Below, one piece after another: positions 14,418 through 64,000 of a DNA stretch of 64,000 nucleotides. The notes under the pieces were generated by a model. The model had not been told where the DNA came from. It saw nothing but the letters and a program-made list of their open reading frames with translations, and ran no database searches. How positions within the stretch are numbered: the stretch's first letter is position 1; every line of letters starts with the position of its first letter. Source of the DNA: Cenococcum geophilum 1.58 (lineage: Eukaryota > Ascomycota > Dothideomycetes > Gloniales > Gloniaceae); the NCBI GenBank assembly GCA_001692895.1, contig KV748221.1, positions 1,033,056 to 1,097,055 of the forward strand. The letters run 5' to 3'. Made by a program: the position numbers and the translations under genes.

Positions 14418-15627
14418 TGCCCCTGCAGGCAGGAGGCCGGAGCGATTTCTATTCGATTTGCATTGCGGCGCGCTTCGTTGCTAGACTAGTGGCTACCCCA
14501 GGATCTATTTGATATTCTTCCCGATTTTCCGACCGGAGGATCCGTTCATACTCATCAACTCGTTTTGTACAAATCCGCAACAATATTCTTCGACATTTTT
14601 GGGGATACCACTCTAAATCACGGGCAACGGCGTTGCGATGTAGCGAAAACATCTTTCTTCTTTATCGATCGATTAGAACGCATTTGGTCCCGACATGTCT
14701 TCCAGCGTTACGCATGATGGTGGTCTGCAATGTTTTGGTGTTATACAGGGTCTCATCTCGGAATTACTTTTTTTTTAATTGTCAAGACTCCCAAAGAAAA
14801 AATTCGGTTACAGATAAAGGTGTTCTGTAGCGTTGGTGTTCTGCAAAGTTTATCGTTACCCAGCTCCTGCTTTTGTTTGGAGCCCTTCAAAGGGTAGATT
14901 TCTTTTGTATGGGCAGGCGGGTTTACGTAGGGCTGGTATACCATGGCGCGAGTCTTTGAGAAACAGCGGCGGTGTCGGGTTTTGGGTTCAGGTGCATATC
15001 TCCATCACATCATGTTGGATCTTTGTCTCTCGATACTGTACGCTGGGATGAGACTACGCGGTCAATTGTGTGCTTTTTCGTTTTTTTGTATCAGTTGGGA
15101 TCGACTTTATATCCCCCCAAAGGAAGCTAATTGGGGGTCATTTTTACTGATCTTCTACCCGGACGTCGGACTATTTTGCGAACAATTCTACGAAACACGC
15201 CTCTAAATTAGGTAGTGGAAATTTTTTGTCATAGGATTCAAATCACAGCTTTGATCACACTTCATTCCTGATTCCCTCCACAGATACTCGAGAGTGATGA
15301 CCTTCGCAACAGCTGAAACTTGGTACCACCTCCTTCAAGCCTAGTACGTAATAGTGATAATCGTCTTGGTATGACGACATCCCTTGGAGCTTAGCTCTTG
15401 ATATATTCTATCAACAGCCAAACAGTTTTCCTTTCCTCCAGCCTTTACCATCGAAAACTGCAGACAATCGCTCAAGCACCTCGCATACCTATAACGCTTT
15501 TTTAATTAGCCTAACTAGCTCCTCACGCTCCTATCTCACCTCTACGCCCGGAAAAGGCATTGAAAGTCTCGGACATCTAAGCCCTACCTTGCAAACGTAG
15601 AAGCTTCCACATCAGTCAACCACCACC
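14418..15627. other. intergenic DNA and leader of the next gene
   Basis: No gene is supported. The last 150 bp are pyrimidine-rich and form the 5' leader of the gene at 15628. Its final 45 bases plus the ATG recur exactly at 19406-19453. Confidence 0.5.
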
Positions 15628-15630
15628 ATG
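15583..15630 (+). repeat. 48-bp leader segment, original copy
   Basis: These 48 bases end exactly with the ATG of the small mitochondrial gene and are identical to 19406-19453. See the finding on leader duplication. Confidence 0.95.
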
Positions 15631-16290
15631 TCAGCGTTCAGAAACGTCACATTCGCAATGCGACGTAGTAGCTTCGTCTTATACCGTTTCTCACAACGGG
15701 CAGGGCTTCAAACCTCTGCAGGGAGATTGTCCGTGAAGGAATCAGAGCTTGGTATGGTAACCCCTCTTCCTAGCAACATTACGCAGTCATCAATAGTCCG
15801 CACAACGGGCTGAGAGGCTCCATTCTTGATGGAGTGTGCAATTGGCTAGATAGGCAGCTTTCTTTAAGTTCCAGGGTACCGCTGTCTGTGGAGCCAGGAA
15901 AATACGTTCCTACACCGCGGGCTTGGCAGCCTTCCTTTGATCTTACGAGACCTGCATCTCACATGCAATATTTTCACTGATATTTTCAAACTTAGGTAAT
16001 GAAGAACGCGCAAAGGAGGTGGAGGAACACAAGCAGGACCTGCTAAGGAAGCAAAAGGAAGGCAAGGGACATTGGAAGGAACCGCTGGCTTCGGATAGTG
16101 AGAGTATTGTACGAACACCTCTTGTTTCCATTGTTTGGAGATACACTTAACCCTTTTTTGAACTGTGTGGCTAATGCGGAAATCGGAATAGATCAAAGCG
16201 GACCGCGACGAAATCGATGCGACAGAAGAAACTATCAAACAACTGCAAAAGGAAACTGAGAGAACTGCTGAACACGAGTACAAGAAATGA
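15628..16290 (+). CDS. Small conserved protein, probably mitochondrial
   Basis: Three exons, 15628-15751, 15996-16108 and 16192-16290, give 111 residues; introns are 244 and 83 bp. The N-terminus (MSAFRNVTFAMRRSSFVLYRFSQRAGLQTS) is basic, hydroxylated and almost acid-free, like a matrix targeting signal. The rest is highly charged and helical: EERAKEVEEHKQDLLRKQ, EGKGHWKEPLASDSES, IKADRDEIDATEETIKQLQ. The KQKEGKGxWKExLAS core looks like a short, widely conserved fungal family, but I do not know its function. Intron 1 is unusually long for this genome and has an early in-frame stop if kept. The leader sequence of this gene is duplicated near 19.4 kb. Confidence 0.75.
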
Positions 16291-16906: not shown

Positions 16907-18960
16907 TGTGAGGCATATTGCCAGGGTATACGGTAGGGAGTAGGCAAGCCGAGCATAAGTCAGGAGAGTCGATAGAAGAGGACGATATGGCAAAGAGTAG
17001 GGTAGGGCAATATCCTCGTACAGAGACGAACCGATGATGCAGGTCCGGGGAGCTTTTCAGGCTTAGCCGAGGCTAACGTATTAGTCACCCGATCGAGCCA
17101 CCCCCCCGATCGAGCCACCCTCCCGATTGAGACATCGTCCCGATCGGGCCACGCTCTGAGCAGAGCTCTCGTATGCACAGACTCTCACCCAAAACGTCAA
17201 TTCTATTAATACTATTTAAAAACTTCGTCCTGCATAGGTAGTTCCTTCCACACCTTCTTCGCGAACGTGATAACACCTTGTAGAGCTCCACGTCTTTCCT
17301 TTTGGGTAGCCTCCTCCTGCTCCTTTTCCTCCCTCTCTTGGTTCTTCTTAAGAGCCTCCCCTACTGATAAAACTCGTGCCTTCCCATATGACGTCTTCTC
17401 CTTGCCACGACGTTGTCTCTTCTGCTTCTCTATAAGCTCCGTACTGACACGCTGAAGAACAATCTTATTAGTAAGAGTGCTTAAAGCTATTTGCTGTAGA
17501 TCGAGTATTGCTTCTAAATGTAGGGGTGGTGCACCTTGTAGAATTAGATCAACGACTTTATTAATCTTCTCTCCTACAGAAGGAGAGATAGGAATATTAA
17601 TTCGAACACCATTCTTATTTGTAAGGCTTGCAAAAGGAGAAGTCTTAGGCCGGATCTTTGATAACAGTAGAAGGATTAAGGGGAATAAGACCTGTTGCCC
17701 GCCACGCACTAGCTATATTAGTTAAAGATATAGCTTTATTACGCGCAGCTTAATAGTATTGCAAGAACTCTAACTTAGTGATACTTAAGGCTCCGTAGAG
17801 TGCAGAGTTATGGAGGTGCTTTTTGTAAGCTCGCGCCAAGGGACCAAATACGCCGACGTTGAGAGGTTGAAGTCTATGCGTCGAATGTGGGGGGAGGCAG
17901 AGAGCCACGATCTTATAAGCCTCGTAATACTCGATGAATTACATTAATACGTGGCTCTTGTGGCCATTAAGAATCAATAAGCGATAGATTCCTTAGAGTC
18001 GTGGGTTTATATATAATTTAAAGTGGTGCAACCAGTTGAGAGCAATATCCGAATTTATCCACCCTAAATCGCTCACTTAGATAACCGCCTAGCGATTAAG
18101 GCGTGGAGTTATCCAAGCTCGTTGTATTTGCTTTCCTTTAAAGATAATATAAGGAGGCAGCCGATATCAATTTCCTAATATGCATTCGATTAAGGACACC
18201 CACTCGCGAGTGCCTGCCTCTGTAGTGAAAACCTTAGCCTCCGACCGTGATATTAACACCTTAATCTTATTACCAACTCCTATTGCGATTCCCTTCTCAT
18301 CCATATTATATTAATCTCCCTTAGAAATTCCGTACTTGGCGACCGTAGCTGCGTACAGCTTAAACTAATCTTTAATAATCTCGGGGTCTTCGGCGTCCTT
18401 TCGCTTTTGATTAAGACATCTAGCAAATCGAGCTTTAAGTTCTGGGTGGCGATTAAGGAAGTTCTTATACCAGTGTTGGCCAAGCTCCGTAGAACACTTT
18501 TTTGCTTTGAGAAGATCTTTAGCCATAGATTTAAGATGCTAGATTTGAGGTGGCCACCCCTAGCTTCCCATAGTATTAATTCATTTAACGATAGAGTCTT
18601 CCTTAAAGACTGAGAGCATTTGCTGGGCTTGATGAGACTCCTTGCACGACCGGCGCCCCTTCTAACGGTGGTTAAGAGTTGATCGCGGTAGGTGGTGAGA
18701 TTTAGCAAGCTGACGAATAGATTGGTCGGGGTTGGCTTCTAAAAGCTTAATCGCAATTTGCATTCGAGCTTCTTGATCNAGTTCAAGCGGTGCGACAGCC
18801 GTAGAGTCCATGGTTGTGGTGTAGGAAAGGTAAGATGCATCAGAAAAGGGGTGATTTGAATCGCGATCGGCGGGTGGCTCGATCGGGGGGGTGGCTCGAT
18901 CGGGTGGCTAATACGTACCCCTGAGAGCCCTCGGGTGATGCACCCGAGTAAGCCCTTACA
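16907..18960. mobile_element. solo LTR of an LTR retrotransposon, split by a DNA transposon
   Basis: The outer element is about 212 bp long in two parts, 16907-17075 and 18918-18960. It begins TGTGAGG and ends CCCTTACA, and is flanked by 5-base duplications that differ at one position (ACTTC / ACCTC). It is homologous to the uninterrupted copy at 32639-32896. No internal retroviral genes are present, so this is a fossil left by LTR-LTR recombination. The DNA transposon at 17076-18915 inserted into it later. Confidence 0.85.
17076..18915 (-). mobile_element. Fot1/pogo-like DNA transposon (Tc1-mariner superfamily), RIP-damaged
   Basis: The element is 1,840 bp with a TA duplication (17074-17075 and 18916-18917). 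Inverted ends start about ACGTATTAG and each carry tandem copies of a CGATCGAGCCACCC motif. A transposase gene runs on the minus strand from about 18811 to 17212, near the 530-540 codons usual for Fot1. Near its start, MDSTAVAPLELDQEARMQIA and SIRQLAKSHHLPRSTLNHR form a DNA-binding helix-turn-helix. YNMDEKG is the first catalytic Asp motif. The second and third read NGHKSHV and LQPLNVG, with Asn where Asp is expected, the result of G-to-A change. Several TAG/TAA codons and at least one frame change interrupt it, so it is inactive. The last 165 codons are open and Lys/Glu-rich. Confidence 0.88.
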
Positions 18961-19379
18961 ACCTCATAGAGCCGCCAGCGGAGCTAGAATAGGGCAGGAA
19001 CCTACGGTCGCGCAGACCTCGCAACCTCAAAACTAACTAGCTTATTAATTAATCAATTAATCGCCTCTATTTCCTCTTATTTAAACTTTAGTAATAAAAT
19101 ATATAATATTCTACTGGGCGGTAGGCTAAACTTTCTAATTAGGAAAGTGCAAAACCTTTAGACAGCGACCTCCGTACTCAAGCCAGCAAACAGCCGCTGC
19201 GGACATGCTCTCTTACGATAGAAATGCCTATACGGCCGCATAGTCGCTTGAAGATCAACAAGAGATTAGTTGCACCGCGATACGTGCGACGGTCTAAACT
19301 CATGTCAAACGCCTCAACTGCGCAGCCAGCCCTACTTTATGGACATATCATTAGACCCACAGCAGCAGCCGCCCTCTGG
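18961..19379. other. intergenic DNA upstream of the patatin-like remnant
   Basis: The first half is AT-rich. The second half is GC-balanced with open frames lacking motifs. No gene is supported. Confidence 0.4.
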
Positions 19380-19470
19380 CCATGCCCGACAAGGAGCTCC
19401 GAAGGCCTACCTTGCAAACGTAGAAGCTTCCACATCAGTCAACCACCACCATGCCCGACAAGGAGCTCCG
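19380..19470. repeat. 22-bp direct repeat flanking a copied leader segment
   Basis: A 22-bp sequence beginning CCATGCCCGACAAGG occurs at 19380-19401 and again at 19449-19470. Between them lie about 4 bases and the 48-bp segment copied from, or shared with, 15583-15630; the ATG belongs to both the segment and the second repeat. Confidence 0.95.
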
Positions 19471-19700
19471 CCTGCTCGCGCTCGGTGGCAGCGGGGTACG
19501 TGGCCTGTTCGCGCTGATGATCCTCGAGTAGGTCATAGAGACGATTAACCCAGACTTGCCGCCGAAGCCTTACGACTACTCTCATATGATTTGGGGGAAC
19601 AAGCACTGGCGGGTAGGCCGTCACGACATACTAAGATACCGGACGTGAATGCTAACAGACCAGGCTCATCGCAATTATGCTTGGCCGGCTTTTTAGCATC
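19451..19700 (+). pseudogene. patatin-like phospholipase, 5' remnant
   Basis: From the ATG at 19451 the frame reads MPDKELRLLALGGSGVRGLF, then ALMILE and, after a TAG, VIETINPDLPPKPYDYSHMI. This is the start of a fungal patatin-like phospholipase with its GGSGVRG oxyanion-hole motif. After an extra base the nucleophile motif GTSTGG follows in another frame, then what looks like a short intron (GTAGGC..CTAAC..CCAG, about 19615-19664) and LIAIMLGRL. Homology ends near 19,700, so only the first 70 or so of about 300-plus residues remain. Patatin domains occur in fungi as lipases and as effector domains of NLR-type receptors; the neighbouring NLR gene on the other strand makes the second idea attractive but unproven. 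Confidence 0.7.
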
Positions 19701-19947: not shown

Positions 19948-22900
19948 TCAGACGAGGAACTCGAACATTGACACTCGGCCTGACGAATGCCCTAGAACGA
20001 CAGTTCTCCCCCGAACGGCAACGCAACTAGCGCGATAATCGGGAGGAAGCCAAAGTAAGTTCTCGGACCCCAGAGTTACCCACTGCTCTTTTACGAATAG
20101 TCTTGGGCGCAGGGCTGGTCGAGCTTGCACTGACATAGAAGCGTTGGAGATGACGTCGAGGACTCCCCTATCCGTGAGGAGGTAATTTCCATCGCTGGTG
20201 AAGCAAAGCTCCTGAATAATTGCACAGACCTGGAGCGTCTGCCGCCCCTGTCCCGACCGCGCGTCCCACAGCCTGACGGTTTTGTCCCACGACGCCGACG
20301 CCACGACGGTCCCGTCTGGCGAGAAGGCCACGGCTTTGACGCAGTCCGAATGCCCCCTAAGTGTCTGCCGCTCCTGTCCTGACTGCGCGTCCCATAGCTT
20401 GACGGTCTTGTCATCCGATGCTGACGCCACGACGGTCCCGTCTGGCGAGAAGGCTACGACGTTGACGTAGCCCGAATGCCCCTCGAGCGTCTGTAGAGTG
20501 GCGCTCCATACCTCTTCTGTTTCGGGGAGTCGTTCTATCAACCGCGGTATCTGGTTTTTGAATTGCTCCCGAATTACACTCCTTTTTGGTGCAAATATCA
20601 ACGCAGAAGCGTATACTTGCAGCGGCGCCTGTTCAATCGCTGATCGACTATACTGTGCAAATCTTTTGGTATCGTGAACTAGCCTTAAAAGACTGGGGCC
20701 CTCCGTGTTCTTATAGATTCGGTCAGCTTAGATACCCAAATTATTTATATGATAAACTCACCGACAGGCCTAATTCTAAGGCTGTTGTGGCATGTATGCC
20801 ATCGGTGAGCCTTCCTATCCAACTAAGTGCCTCAAGCCAGTGAAAGACGTTTCGATTAAGAAATTCATGAACCCAGTTGTCGTCAGAAAGTTTAGTCCCA
20901 CTCTTCAGCACATGTTGCACCCAGTATATGCAGGCATACTGGGCCTCTGGAGGTAAATATTTTTGAATTGTCGACGTCTTAACATCTGAGACTAATATTC
21001 CATGTCGCTTAACATTGCAAATATCGTGATTGAGAATATTTGATAGGAGATTTATACAATGCTCAGCCATTCCCTTATGCACCTCCTGTTCTGTGATGGA
21101 AAAATGTTGACTGGTACATCTTTGACGATCAAAAAGAAAGTCTCGGAATGATGGATGTAAAGGGAAAATCGGAGAGCTCTCATCGTCTGGCACGTTAAAT
21201 AATGACCTTAGAGGTCTTAACCCCCGATGAATTGCGGTGTACTCTATATCCAAAAGACGGCCTAGGACCATAGGCGAGAGGGGTTGAGACACGACCGCAA
21301 TAGCGCTAATGATATTCTTCATCTCGTTTGCAATGTGAGCTTTGTCTCGCAGATCTTCAATGTGCTTTAGTGAATAGCTTAGTATTTGAGTGTACATCTT
21401 GTCGAGCTCTAAATATGGTGATTTCAGAGGTGTGCTTCGTTTACGCTTCCGAGATTCACTGTCGTGGATATCGGGAACGAAAACGCTGAGCAGGTCATCA
21501 GGTGACCAATGGTAATTACTTTTGAGAAAGCGACAGACTGTTGCAGCATAGATGAATAACCCCTCGGACTTGTTGACAAGGAGATTGAGTCTGTGTTCGC
21601 CAGGCCAGTCAGGAGCGACTTCCTCAAAAATCTCTCGGATCTCTGAAAACTGCATCTTAAAGAATGTTAAGATGTCCCGATCCACAACCTCTCGGGATAT
21701 CTCATCAAGGACCAAGTCGTGATGGTAAATTGACGGCATTTGACGAAATCCGAGCCGAAGTGGAGTTTCCGGCCTGCTAGTGATGAAAATTCGGAATTGA
21801 ACGGTAGTAATATCTTTAATCTCTGAAAGTAATCGCAATAGAACACGAACATCTTTATCTTCTTCGCACTCATCTAATGCATCGATGACTATGAGAAGCC
21901 GTGACTGATGGAAACTATTGTCTAACCTTGTGAATGGTGTCAGGATAAGGTGGCGCCATTGGTCATCGAGCGAGTGGCTTGCGATATCGTTATGCTTCTC
22001 CACTAATGTATATATGAGATTTTTGAGAGCTGGTATCCTTTTTGATAGTTGTACGGCAATAGTTGGAAAGAACTTGCCGGCGTGTGCTAAGTCTCCTCCA
22101 CCACGGGAGAAGAAGAAGCTCGCTCCAAGACATCCATTTTGGTCGTTCTCTCGGGCAACGGTGCGGGCAATAGTTGACTTCCCAGTGCCAGCAAGGCCAT
22201 TCAACCAGAAGATAGGTCTGTCATCGCGTCCGTGAGCCCAGTCTCTTATTTCTTGAAGAACTTCAACTCGAGTGTTTTCAAGGCAGGTAGACTCATGCTG
22301 TTTCTCATATGAATTAAAGGCAGCTTGTGAAACATTCGGCAGCCTGTCAAGCTGAAAATCCTTTGAACGCTTGTCGAGCTCCTCCCGCAGCCGAATTAAC
22401 GCATTCTCCCTCCCTTCACCGTAGATGAGCGGCATGTGGATGTCGAAAATGCCCAGCAGAGAGTACACCTTGTCTTCTTCACGTTTGGTCTCACGTTTTG
22501 CTGCCCATGACATTCTCTCTCCAACGCCGAAATAAAACAAAGGCCTTCCTTGAAGAGCTTCAATAGCAATCTCCGTTATTTCATGAACTTGTCGCTCCAG
22601 AGATTTCTTGTCCCCGAGTCGCTCGCGATTTATAGAGAAGAATTCAACTGATGCTGGAGCAATAAGCTCTTGAAGCGTCCAGCCACGAGTGAACTATCTG
22701 CTTTTCCGAAAAGCCGATTCCCACGTAAACAGGGAGATTTGATCGTTCATATTATAGCCACGTGCCGAAACGTCTGACAGGTACACATAGCATTTAGCCG
22801 CATCACGGTACCAGCGAAACATAGAGTTGATAGCCTCCGAGAGCTCAGTGTTGTTTGTTTTGTCGATGCAACATGTGTCTACCCAGAAGTATTGTAGGCC

Positions 22901-23104
22901 ATCGCAAGCAGCTCGTTCTCCGCAGAATCGGATCTTGTTATAGCCAGCCTTATTCTTACCGGTACCCTCCGCCAGGTCTTTGCAGGTGACCTCTTCGCTA
23001 TCAGCTCCCCAAGTATGAGAAAGAATCGCATATCGGGGAATATTGTCTCCAATAAATTCGGTTAGGCTAAAGTCGCCATTATCTTTAAGTTCTAAGAGAC
23101 GCAT
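19948..23104 (-). pseudogene. HET-NACHT-WD40 receptor (HNWD/NLR type), one break
   Basis: Three domains follow one another on the minus strand. HET: starts at 23104 with MRLLELKDNGDFSLTEFIGD, then RYAILSHTWGADSEEV, YFWVDTCCIDKTN and AINSMFRWYRDAAKCYVYLSDV; after a single break near the middle of the HET region it continues GWTLQELIAPASVEFFS. NACHT: P-loop GLAGTGKSTIAR near 22,190 and Walker B LLIVIDALDECEE near 21,880, followed by a helical region. An intron at 20761-20710 (GTGAGT, CTGACC branch, TATAAG acceptor) leads to the WD40 exon ending at 19948, with two almost identical WD units and degenerate blades. Such proteins control heterokaryon incompatibility or non-self recognition, the HET domain triggering cell death. 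With one break, the N-terminal 136 residues or the NACHT-WD part could still be made separately, so loss of function is likely but not certain. Confidence 0.85.
20242..20493 (-). repeat. two near-identical 126-bp WD40 units
   Basis: Two 42-residue WD units, each with VAFSPDGTVVASAS.DKTV.LWDA, follow each other with a 126-bp period and differ at few bases. Very similar WD units are the mark of fungal receptors whose repeats are shuffled and under diversifying selection. Confidence 0.85.
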
Positions 23105-34856: not shown

Positions 34857-35547
34857 GGTCGCCACTAATCGTACACCCCCTAAATGATATTCGTACACCC
34901 CCCAATTGATATTCGTACACCCCCTACCTTATTTAGTTTAGACACTTCCTCACTAAGTTTAGACGCTTCCTCACTAAGTTAGATTATCACGTGCGTTTGA
35001 CTTATTTGCGCCTGCATTACAAAAATTAAAGTACGAGCCCATAGTATAGCCAGTATTTCGCTTAAATGCTAAGGGCTTTCTATAAGTTAACGCGATTAGC
35101 AGTTATAGAGCCAGCTATAAAGTTAATCGGCCGACTACTACGACGCTCTATAATTGCAGGCTCTTAGATATAAAGTAGAGGTGTTAATTTGGGTCCTACT
35201 GGGCGCAGGCGCGGGCGTAGGCGCAAAGCAGAGGTAGCAGTACCTAAATTAGTTTATATAACGCCTTACAAAGCACTACGCAATCCAATTAATTAACTTA
35301 GGCGTGATCTAAATTTAGACTCTACTACTTATACTATAACTAAAATTAAGACTTAATCGTGATGTTACTGTTATAAAACTTACATGGCGCGTACTTTGAT
35401 TTTCGCAATACAGGCGCAAATAAGTCAAACGCACGTGATGATCTAACTTAGTGAGGAAGTGTCTAAACTAAATAAGGTAGGGGGTGTACGAATATCAATT
35501 GGGGGGTGTACGAATATCATTTAGGGGGTGTACGATTAGTGGCGACC
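34857..35547. mobile_element. 691-bp long-TIR element, MULE-like or MITE
   Basis: The ends are long inverted repeats of about 170-190 bp starting GGTCGCCACTAATCGTACAC. The left arm has an extra 21-bp tandem copy of a TTTAGACRCTTCCTCACTAAG unit. Both flanks are runs of eight A, so an 8-bp duplication is possible but cannot be told from an A-tract. Each arm has three CGTACACCCCC motifs. The core (about 35050-35380) is AT-rich and reads LIGRLLRRSIIAGS, GPTGRRRGRRRKAEVAVPKL and VYITPYKALRNPIN in one plus frame, a fragment of unknown origin with an AT-hook-like basic patch. Long arms suggest a Mutator-like element that lost its transposase. Confidence 0.75.
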
Positions 35548-60559: not shown

Positions 60560-61125
60560 CCTATATTAGCGACTTAGTTAATTAAGGCACGAGTGCGGTA
60601 AGAGGGATGCGTAAGCCTATATAATTGGTAGTTTATAAACAAGGATCTAAAGCTAAAGAAAGGGAAGGAGATAGAGGGCGGCGCCGCTTAACGTTATATA
60701 TAATCCTCTAGTTACGTAATAGCAATTATCTAGAACTATATAAAACTATCCATAACTATTTATAACTATTTGCGACTATCTACTATAATCCACTAATATC
60801 TATTAGCTATAATCTACTAGTTTCTACTAGTTTCCACTAATTTCTACTAGCGCTATTGTTAGCGACTTAGTCAATCGAGGCACGAGTACGGCAAGAGGGA
60901 CGCGCAAGCCTGTACGATTGGTAATCTATAAACGAAGATCTAAAGCTAGAGAAAGGAAAGGAGACGGAGGGCGGCGCCGCTTAACGTTATATACGATCCT
61001 CTAGTTATATAGCGGCAACTATTTAGAACTATAAGAAACTATCTGCGACTATCTGCGACTATCTGCGACTGCCCGCCATAATTTACTAATATCCATCAGC
61101 TATAATCCCCTAGTGCCGTAATATT
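60560..61125. repeat. 293-bp tandem duplication, probably within the Gypsy LTR
   Basis: Two copies share GACTTAGTYAATYRAGGCAC, GGGCGGCGCCGCTTAACG and GATCCTCTAGTTA with a 293-bp offset. The first copy is the more RIP-mutated. A (CTATCTGCGA)n stutter is at 61046-61075. The block abuts the polypurine tract of the Gypsy fossil, so it is best read as its LTR or part of it. Confidence 0.75.
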
Positions 61126-64000
61126 ACCCCCCCCCTCCGGGAAAGCCTGCCCTTAAGCTTTATACGTCCGTATTATATCTATAGGGTATTCTTATTTTTA
61201 TGCTTAATAGGCAGCTTATTATCTTCGCTATTCTAGCACTCTATCTACTTATTAAGGTACTTTAGGGGTCCGGGTTTGTTAGGGTAATAACTATAAAATT
61301 TTTAAAGCTTATAGGGACTACCTATAAAGTTCTATGTAGGGTACTAAGTGGGGTCTAAGTTGTACCCTTTCTAACTAACACAATATTTTAACGTTCCCCT
61401 TATAAGCTTACAGGCCAGTATTTCTTTAATTTCCTATTCGTCGTCGCTATTGACTTAGATCGGTAGGGGAGGTTAATTCTTTTATTTAGGTAATAGGTTA
61501 TTTATAGCTTTCCGTAGTTTATCCGGAGAGAAAATAGGGTAAACTTTAATTAAATCTGGGAGCTTTACTTTATACGCGTTACCTATCTTCTTAAGAACCT
61601 TATATGGTCCTACTATCTAATAATCTAGCTTATGGCTAAGTCGTTCCGTCTTCTAGTTTTTTATTATAACCCAGACTATATCTCCTACGGCAAAGTTAGG
61701 CTCTCGCCTATACTTATTCGTCTACTGTTATATTAATTTCTAGGCCTTTTCTAGATTTGTATAGGCTACTATCTAGGCTTCTTTTAAGCGCTTGGTGTAC
61801 TACTAGGCTTCCTTATAAGATAGTTTTTTTATATATAGTCTAGGGTCCTTCTAGTTTTTCCTAGTCAAAGCTTATACGGGGTAGTAGCCCATTTTTAGCT
61901 AGATAGGGGTAAATCCTATAGAGTCGTAAGGTAGGGTCGCTTGGGCGTAGTTTATTAGGGGTAGTAGTTTGGCCTAGTTATTTTAGAAGTAGTTAATAAA
62001 GGGCCGAAGTCTCTAGTCTAAGTATTAATTTACAATTTCTGTCTAATTATTTGTTTGGGGGTGGTATACTATAAAAAGCTTTAGCTTAATACCTAAGATT
62101 TGGGTAAACTTATTCTAGAAAGCCGAAATAAATTGCGGCCTATAATTGGATATAATAGTATCTAGTAGTCCGTAAATTCGGTAGACGTAGTAGATATATA
62201 GTTAGGCCACCTCTTTAGCATTGATATTTTTATAATAGGGGATTAAGAACAGGCGCTTACTAAAGAAGTTAACTAGGATTATAACTATATCGTATCCGTT
62301 GCGGTCCGTAGGTAGTTAGTAGAAGTCTATAAAGATATACTACTAGGGGCGTTCTAGTATTGGGAGTGGTTTTAATAGTCCTAGGGTCTTATCTTGTGGA
62401 ATTGTAGATCTACGGTAGTTGTTATAGTTCCGTATATAGCGGTTAATATCCGCTATTATTTTAGGCTAGTAGTAGTGGTTGCTAATAATCTTATAGGTTT
62501 TATTTTTTCTAGGGTAGGCCGTAGAGACCTAGGTATAAGCTTTGGTAATAAGCTGGGTCCGTAAGTTTTGTTTTTTAGCTACTACTAGCCGTTCCTAGTG
62601 CTTAAGTAGTCCGTTTTTAAGGGATTATAGGCTAGCGACGTTCTTTACCTTTTTGCGGTACTCCTATAGAGAGGGGGTTGTTTGGTTAGCCTATAGTAAT
62701 TTATTAATAAGGTTAAGTTTAGAGGAGTTAATAGGATATATCTTGGCGCCTAAGGAGTCCATGCTTAGTTCTGCCTATATCTAGGGGTTAAGGTATTCTA
62801 GTTATAGTAGCGTCTAGGTTTATAATAAGATCTTTATAGCTGTCTGGTTATTTAGGTCTTGCTTACGCCTTATAAGAGCGTCCGTACGGTTTATAGCGCC
62901 TGGTTTATATATAATTAAGAAGTTAAACTAAGATAGGGTATCCGCCTAGCGTGCCTACTGGGCTATAAGGGCCTTAGTTGTTATAAAGTATCTAGGGCCT
63001 TATAATCTAAAACTACCTTAATCGGCCTAGGGGTCCCCTCTAGCTATATACGCTAGTGCTAAAAGCTAGAGATAATAGCCAGCATTTCTTTATTATAGAT
63101 GTGGTAGTTTAGCTTAGCATCTATTATAGTCTTTAAATAGTATGTAATAGGGTGCTACTCTTCGTCTGGTTGCTTCTGGGAAAAAATATTAGCTATCGCG
63201 TTGTCTAAGGCATTAGTTTCTAGCATTAAGGGCCGTTTTAGGTTAAAATGAGCAAGTAGGGGAGCCAATATTAGCTGTTTCTTAAGTTTATTAAAGGCCT
63301 GCCTATATATAGCGTTAAAGTAGAAGGGCTAGTCTTTTTTAGTAAGACGGTTAAGAGGCTAAGCAATCCTACTATAGTTCTTAATAAAGTGTTAATAGAA
63401 GTTATAAAAACCTAAAAATGATTATACCCCCTTTACGGTCTATGGGGGTGCCTACTGGTTAATTATAGCCGTTTTCTTTGGGTCGGTTTTAATTCCGTTT
63501 ATACTAATAATAAAACCTAGGTACTTTATACGCTTAATACTAAACTCTAACTTCTTAATATTAACCTAGAGGCTAGCCTTATAGAGCTATTATAGGACTT
63601 TATGGACGTGCTCCTTGTATTCTAGCTTATTCTTAAAGTAGATTATAATATTATCTAAATAGGCCGTATAGAAGTCGTTAAGGTAGTTAAAGAGTACATT
63701 GTTTATATACCGCTGGTATATAGCTAGTCTATTAGTTAGTCTAAAAGGGAGTACCTTATATTTATACGCTTTGTAATAGGTCCGAAATATAATAAGATCT
63801 TTAGACCTAGGGTCTATTCTAATTTAATAAAAGGCCTAGCGGATATTAAGCTTTATAAAGACCTTAGCTCTACTTATTTGGGCCAGAGTCTTATTAAGTA
63901 GGGGTAGCGAATAGCGGTCCTTGCGGGTTATATTATTTAGCTTATAGTAGTTAATATAGAAGCGGAGTCCTCTATTTAGCTTTTTAATAAAGAGAATAGG
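61126..64000 (-). mobile_element. Ty3/Gypsy chromovirus fossil, pol 3' part and polypurine tract
   Basis: The element reads leftwards from the right window edge and is incomplete here. In order on the minus strand are reverse transcriptase (about 64,000-63,400), RNase H (about 63,300-62,900), integrase (about 62,700-61,700) and a chromodomain-like tail (about 61,450-61,250). A polypurine tract with a run of nine G lies at about 61126-61138, next to the putative LTR. The reading frame carries many RIP-type breaks, more than ten. It is old relative to the gene-rich block and belongs to the chromodomain-bearing (chromovirus) branch. Its 5' LTR and gag would lie beyond the window. Confidence 0.85.

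Follow-up and report, generated by a model that had tools for sequence, protein, structure and literature searches.

The start of a patatin-like gene fragment in Cenococcum geophilum 1.58 carries a short stretch that also forms the leader of a small gene further upstream, and the last bases of this copy are the start codon of both. This raises the question of how the leader of one gene came to lie in front of another, and whether its edge at the start codon points to a copied transcript. Coordinates refer to the window, the whole 64,000-nucleotide stretch of contig KV748221.1 that was analysed. We regard the arrangement as probably a neutral scar of DNA break repair, in which a staggered break was patched from nearby DNA, and give this reading a probability of about 0.85.

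Table 1. Features of donor and target in the window
Feature	Position	Strand	Basis or remark
Donor: leader end and ATG of small gene	15579..15630	+	51/52 match to 19402-19453; two genomic places
Small donor gene, 111 aa	15628..16290	+	inferred exons 15628-15751, 15996-16108, 16192-16290
Patatin-like gene remnant: leader and 5' end, stop after codon 26	19283..19690	+	blastn to C2 and C8 paralogs
First 22-bp target copy, with the remnant's own ATG at 19382	19380..19401	+	aligns to the single copy in the C2 paralog
Templated filler, 47 bp	19402..19448	+	matches 15579-15625 with one mismatch
Second 22-bp target copy, first five bases CCATG common to donor	19449..19470	+	

Layout of the insertion and its recipient

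Comparison within the window returned the copy described in the earlier note unchanged: 19406-19453 equals 15583-15630 in 48/48 bp, and the direct repeats on either side agree in 22/22 positions at a spacing of 69. The match grows by four bases on the left to 52 bp, with the sole mismatch at 19405 (C in the donor, G in the copy), and the claimed extent of the copy, from its start in the leader to the start codon, was confirmed as 15579-15630. The 22-bp repeats enclose the copied leader on the patatin side, and the donor leader itself has no flanking direct repeats. Between them lie 47 bp; the copied match closes with CCATG, and these same five bases open the second repeat. The net insertion of 69 bp is made up of the 47-bp filler and one additional 22-mer. 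Base composition alone would yield some 1e-6 pairs of 22-mers within 200 bp per window, and some 1e-19 pairs of 48-mers. Counting exact repeats that measure 24 bp or more and begin at least 500 bp from each other, the window has four, and the leader copy is the only one in direct orientation.

The state before the insertion can be read from paralogs. By blastn, the paralog on contig C2 covers the whole remnant and the one on C8 its part from 19379 on; paralog homology stops near 19690. The C2 paralog is the closest relative of the remnant (loci L004 and L024), and both flanks of the insert align to it, with 75% and 80% identity. Query positions 154-272 and 320-561 give two alignments which overlap there by 22 bases (2801853-2801874), so that the 22-mer occurs in this paralog once, with nothing in between; this single copy is 21/22 identical to that of the window, and no filler is found. 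The 69-bp net duplication with a templated filler proposed earlier, such as template switching during repair of a staggered break would produce, is thereby borne out, the empty paralogous site revealing which copy is derived. It should be noted that this site is known from paralogs of about 80% identity and less, not from an allele or another strain. The first exon region of the C2 paralog matches the Pfam family Patatin (E 3.7e-9), and the C8 paralog gives a Patatin match of 5.2e-6, just short of the family cut-off; the two short pieces of the remnant itself (26 and 38 aa) have no Pfam match.

A search with the remnant protein gave 30 genomic matches. Loci were obtained for 20, one being the window, and the remaining 19 paralogs were examined, with ten further matches left out. 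None of the 19 shows a second copy of an 11-mer from its first codons in the 300 bp upstream, and all lack 14-mers of the 52-bp leader in the interval from 300 bp upstream to 60 bp inside the match. Two of them (L033, L039) have no ATG at the aligned start. Judged from the sequence, the patatin side is the recipient, since the direct repeats lie there and its paralogous site is empty. For the same reasons the reverse direction, with the leader gene as recipient, was ruled out.

The donor is a small gene whose introns were placed by eye for the translation. Its product matches no Pfam family, and the label "mitochondrial" given to it before was not backed by sequence searches of Pfam or PDB. 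In the genome its exons match strongly only at their own locus; two weak matches, on C38 and C118, reach 39% identity (E 5e-4).

How often the stretch occurs was determined by searching 177 Mb on 162 contigs. The query 19380-19480 led to the insertion site and to the donor, two places in all, and the 26-bp core with up to three mismatches to the same two (reversed control: 0); as the search skips very common words, repeat counts are lower bounds. Presence of the same 48 bp before many unrelated genes, named beforehand as an observation that would speak against the insertion, was thus checked in the organism's own genome, and two copies were found. With the lower-bound reserve, the 52-bp stretch is therefore neither a common leader nor a mobile repeat. 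A common leader element was ruled out on this count, and a mobile element on the same count together with the lack of visible terminal repeats. The target duplication around a repeated filler does resemble what a small mobile element, or a common regulatory one, leaves on inserting with duplication of its target, but with two genomic copies, one of which is the leader free of flanking repeats, such an insertion is extremely unlikely. Nor were the many genomic copies of an introner-like element found, the genome search giving two places. A search of a plasmid collection returned no match, which is uninformative for a fungus.

An assembly error that fused donor and target sequence is very improbable. 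The two leader copies and the insert are known from assembly sequence, and a single N stands near 18779; the genome search returned the same contig and hence gives no independent check on the assembly. However, copy and donor differ at one base, and a duplication with filler is a biological pattern.

Edges of the copy and source of the template

At the right edge CCATG is common to donor (CACCACCATGTCA) and target (GGCCATGCCC). These five bases could derive from either, so that the target duplication measures 17 to 22 bp. When places in the 6-kb region were joined at random 200,000 times, 0.52% of the joins shared at least five bases. On the plus strand of this region CCATG occurs five times, including the donor and the two target copies, and CATGG twice, which leaves few other landing sites of this kind nearby. 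CCATG stands at the start in 8/19 paralogs and is thus a usual context in the patatin-like family. The shared CCATG and the two coinciding start codons have to be counted as one fact, as ATG is common to any start codons. The left edge has no shared base beside the join; AAGG found here is either donor AAGC with one change or a result of added untemplated bases.

The stop of the copy at the start codon is, from these letters, probably due to the CCATG microhomology alone. A microhomology at two start codons explains the boundary without recourse to an mRNA template. Here lies a trap of wider relevance: a copy halting at a start codon seems functional, and yet the common context of start codons is itself a microhomology which can set the edge. 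Homology on one side only would fit a copy primed by CCATG, with the opposite end closed by end joining.

The following course may be pictured. A staggered break, or two nearby nicks, would open the start of the patatin-like fragment, and both ends would keep the 17-22 bases between the nicks, which would yield the direct repeat. On the lower strand the right-hand piece would have CATGG at its 3' end; this end could then anneal to CCATG at the donor start codon 3.8 kb upstream, be extended some 47 nt into the leader of the donor gene, be released and finally be joined to the left-hand piece in a step that would use no homology. A replication fork switching templates twice would leave an identical product and is counted within the break-repair reading. 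The insertion, its two components, the empty paralogous site and the shared CCATG are observed directly. What we infer is that a break occurred, in which direction synthesis ran, how the steps followed each other and which enzymes acted.

Arguments against break repair include the lack of clear homology at the left junction and the lack of a second isolated event in the scan of 104 kb, so that recurrence lends it no support. The position of the donor is in its favour, as this lies on the same contig and strand, 3.8 kb upstream of the target; by arithmetic from genome size, a random genomic place would be as near in about 4 of 100,000 cases. A template so placed, on the same strand and at this distance, points to local DNA more than to an mRNA that diffuses freely. 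The earlier suggestion that an mRNA-derived filler would account for the functional boundary loses its ground by this, together with the CCATG common to donor and target, which already gives the edge.

A transcript of the donor acting in cis, for example in an R-loop, might still have been reverse-copied at the break, with the left edge as its 5' end. RNA-derived patches have been described in human cells (PMC5110952; PMC12065846). The favoured direction of synthesis uses the sense strand as template, whose letters are those of the mRNA, and the copied stretch lies within the leader, where no intron is available to test its origin. However, an RNA template explains nothing beyond the DNA model, since CCATG already accounts for the edge at the start codon and nearness on the same strand fits DNA, and the insert has no A-run. 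A rule links pyrimidine-rich stretches to the position of the transcript start, and the one that we read near 15519-15550, about 30 bp upstream of the copied edge, would place the start further left of that edge. We therefore consider an RNA-templated patch improbable. Its more specific form, in which the template was the transcript of the neighbour at its own locus, with priming by five bases at the start codon and synthesis running to the transcript's 5' end, appears very unlikely. If it were true, start-codon contexts common to genes would be landing sites, and repair could swap whole leaders between neighbours.

Comparison with known insertions and search for recurrence

The insertion is well explained as a further case of the already known templated insertion with target duplication. 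As in insertions at staggered breaks with a templated filler, the target repeats are direct and identical (22/22), an empty site with one target copy is found, here in the C2 paralog and not in an allele, and the source of the filler is retained, 15579-15630 being still present. Vaughn and Bennetzen reportedly described natural patch-mediated tandem duplications with a filler patch in rice in 2014. That case concerns a plant.

New introns in Daphnia, inserts between direct repeats of 4-12 bp, have been read as repair of staggered breaks (PMC4202315). The present insert likewise sits between short direct repeats of the target; unlike in Daphnia these measure 17-22 bp, splicing of the insert is hypothetical, and a nearby donor is identified. 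Human templated sequence insertion polymorphisms fall in two classes (PMC5110952). Shared with them is a donor that was copied and not excised, and the junction microhomology resembles class 2, which has no target duplication; here a target duplication stands alongside the 5-bp microhomology. The LINE-mediated class 1 shows target duplication, poly(A) and a T-rich site, the latter two being absent in our case: by reading of the sequence, the filler holds no A-run and neither edge a T-run, and an insertion of the LINE type was ruled out for want of poly(A). Human donors are moreover distant (PMC5110952), whereas the donor here is near. The insertion thus fits neither human class fully.

In Magnaporthe oryzae, nuclease-induced breaks led to tandem duplications of neighbouring sequence and to insertions from other chromosomes or mitochondrial DNA (PMC9684475). 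This is likewise a filamentous fungus, with induced breaks in contrast to the natural scar described here, and a duplication combined with a local patch is not described in the part of that study available to us. For inverted insertions in yeast, microhomology-mediated synthesis followed by end joining was proposed (PMC11724301); our case would share the use of one microhomology and one end-joining step, and differs by its direct orientation. In mammalian cells, small tandem duplications can stem from fill-in synthesis at 3' overhangs (PMC8355091). In animals templated insertions are linked to polymerase theta, and insertions are rare in yeast (PMC9779921).

A literature search for natural templated insertions with microhomology in filamentous fungi returned a review and genome-editing studies; a natural case may exist in print. 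Fungi are not known to possess polymerase theta. The value of the present site lies in being a clean natural fungal example of what looks like break repair with target duplication and a patch from local DNA, with donor, target and empty paralogous site all in one genome.

Recurrence was examined by scanning 104 kb for direct repeats around a filler whose donor is more than 500 bp away. This gave 187 repeat pairs with any distant 14-mer in the filler, in six of which at least 80% of the filler was covered; only these six were considered singly. They comprise the leader event, four arms of two inverted-repeat pairs (judged from the tabulated entries) and one pair in a duplicated segment (69125). 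An earlier scan of the 64-kb window gave 260 pairs, among which those with a matching filler seemed on inspection to be chiefly tandem arrays or inverted repeats. No rate can be derived from one event.

Two repeated regions were encountered along the way. A segment of about 2 kb at 60560-62490 recurs some 8 kb away across the right end of the window, at L051 (~68700-70680 in window coordinates), with 82-89% identity (82-84% over the longer pieces), and holds the pair 69125. At 34857-35547 two exact 103-bp arms are inverted to each other with starts 588 bp apart, each containing an internal 14-bp direct repeat.

Fate of the patatin-like fragment and its surroundings

The repeats had been described as the first codons of the patatin-like remnant. 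This stands for the repeats, with the correction that the frame also starts at the first of them, at the ATG 19382. From this first ATG the reading frame now runs for 13 codons, ending with a TAG inside the insert, and the second ATG opens 26 codons before a stop. With its early stop and only the 5' end left, the target looks dead as far as its sequence can tell, which makes a function of the insertion unlikely; an effect on a working protein is likewise unlikely. That the fragment was given a foreign leader is correct as a description of the layout, but it is a decayed fragment whose own ATG stays upstream. In a living gene such an event would bring a leader swap and a small upstream reading frame at once.

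A new intron was also considered. A possible GT-AG intron would start from the GT at insert position 19 (GTAGAA), with AG partners at 43 (AAG), 46 (GAG) and 72 nt (CAG, past the insert). GTAGAA departs from the usual fungal donor consensus. The letters would thus allow an intron across the insert, one whose GT side is poor and whose use is hypothetical.

The low level of RIP noted earlier says little, as the short insert, the donor and the remnant all give similar indices. These are 1.0 and 1.22 for the 69-bp insert and 1.0 and 1.25 for the 52-bp donor stretch, both too short for the indices to perform well, and 0.95 and 1.22 for the remnant; the window as a whole gives 1.42 and 0.83.

The region that separates donor and target contains a stretch of 1841 bp (17076-18916) with inverted ends of 48 bp which are 96% complementary and consist of repeated GATCGAGCCACCC motifs. 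By these features it looks like a decayed DNA transposon. Two of its broken frames have no transposase match in Pfam, and one of them gives a sub-threshold match to fungal rhodopsin (E 0.016). Without this stretch, the distance from donor to target would be about 2 kb. Positions 19130-19177 represent the end of a dispersed element, with 21 other genomic places among the matches listed; several of the copies form inverted pairs 0.3-9 kb apart, and three that were compared diverge directly after CCGTA. A partner end was not found within the window. Downstream of the remnant, successive frames on the minus strand (19948-23104) encode a HET domain, an NTPase of the NACHT type and WD40 repeats; this region looks like a gene of the heterokaryon-incompatibility type (STAND).
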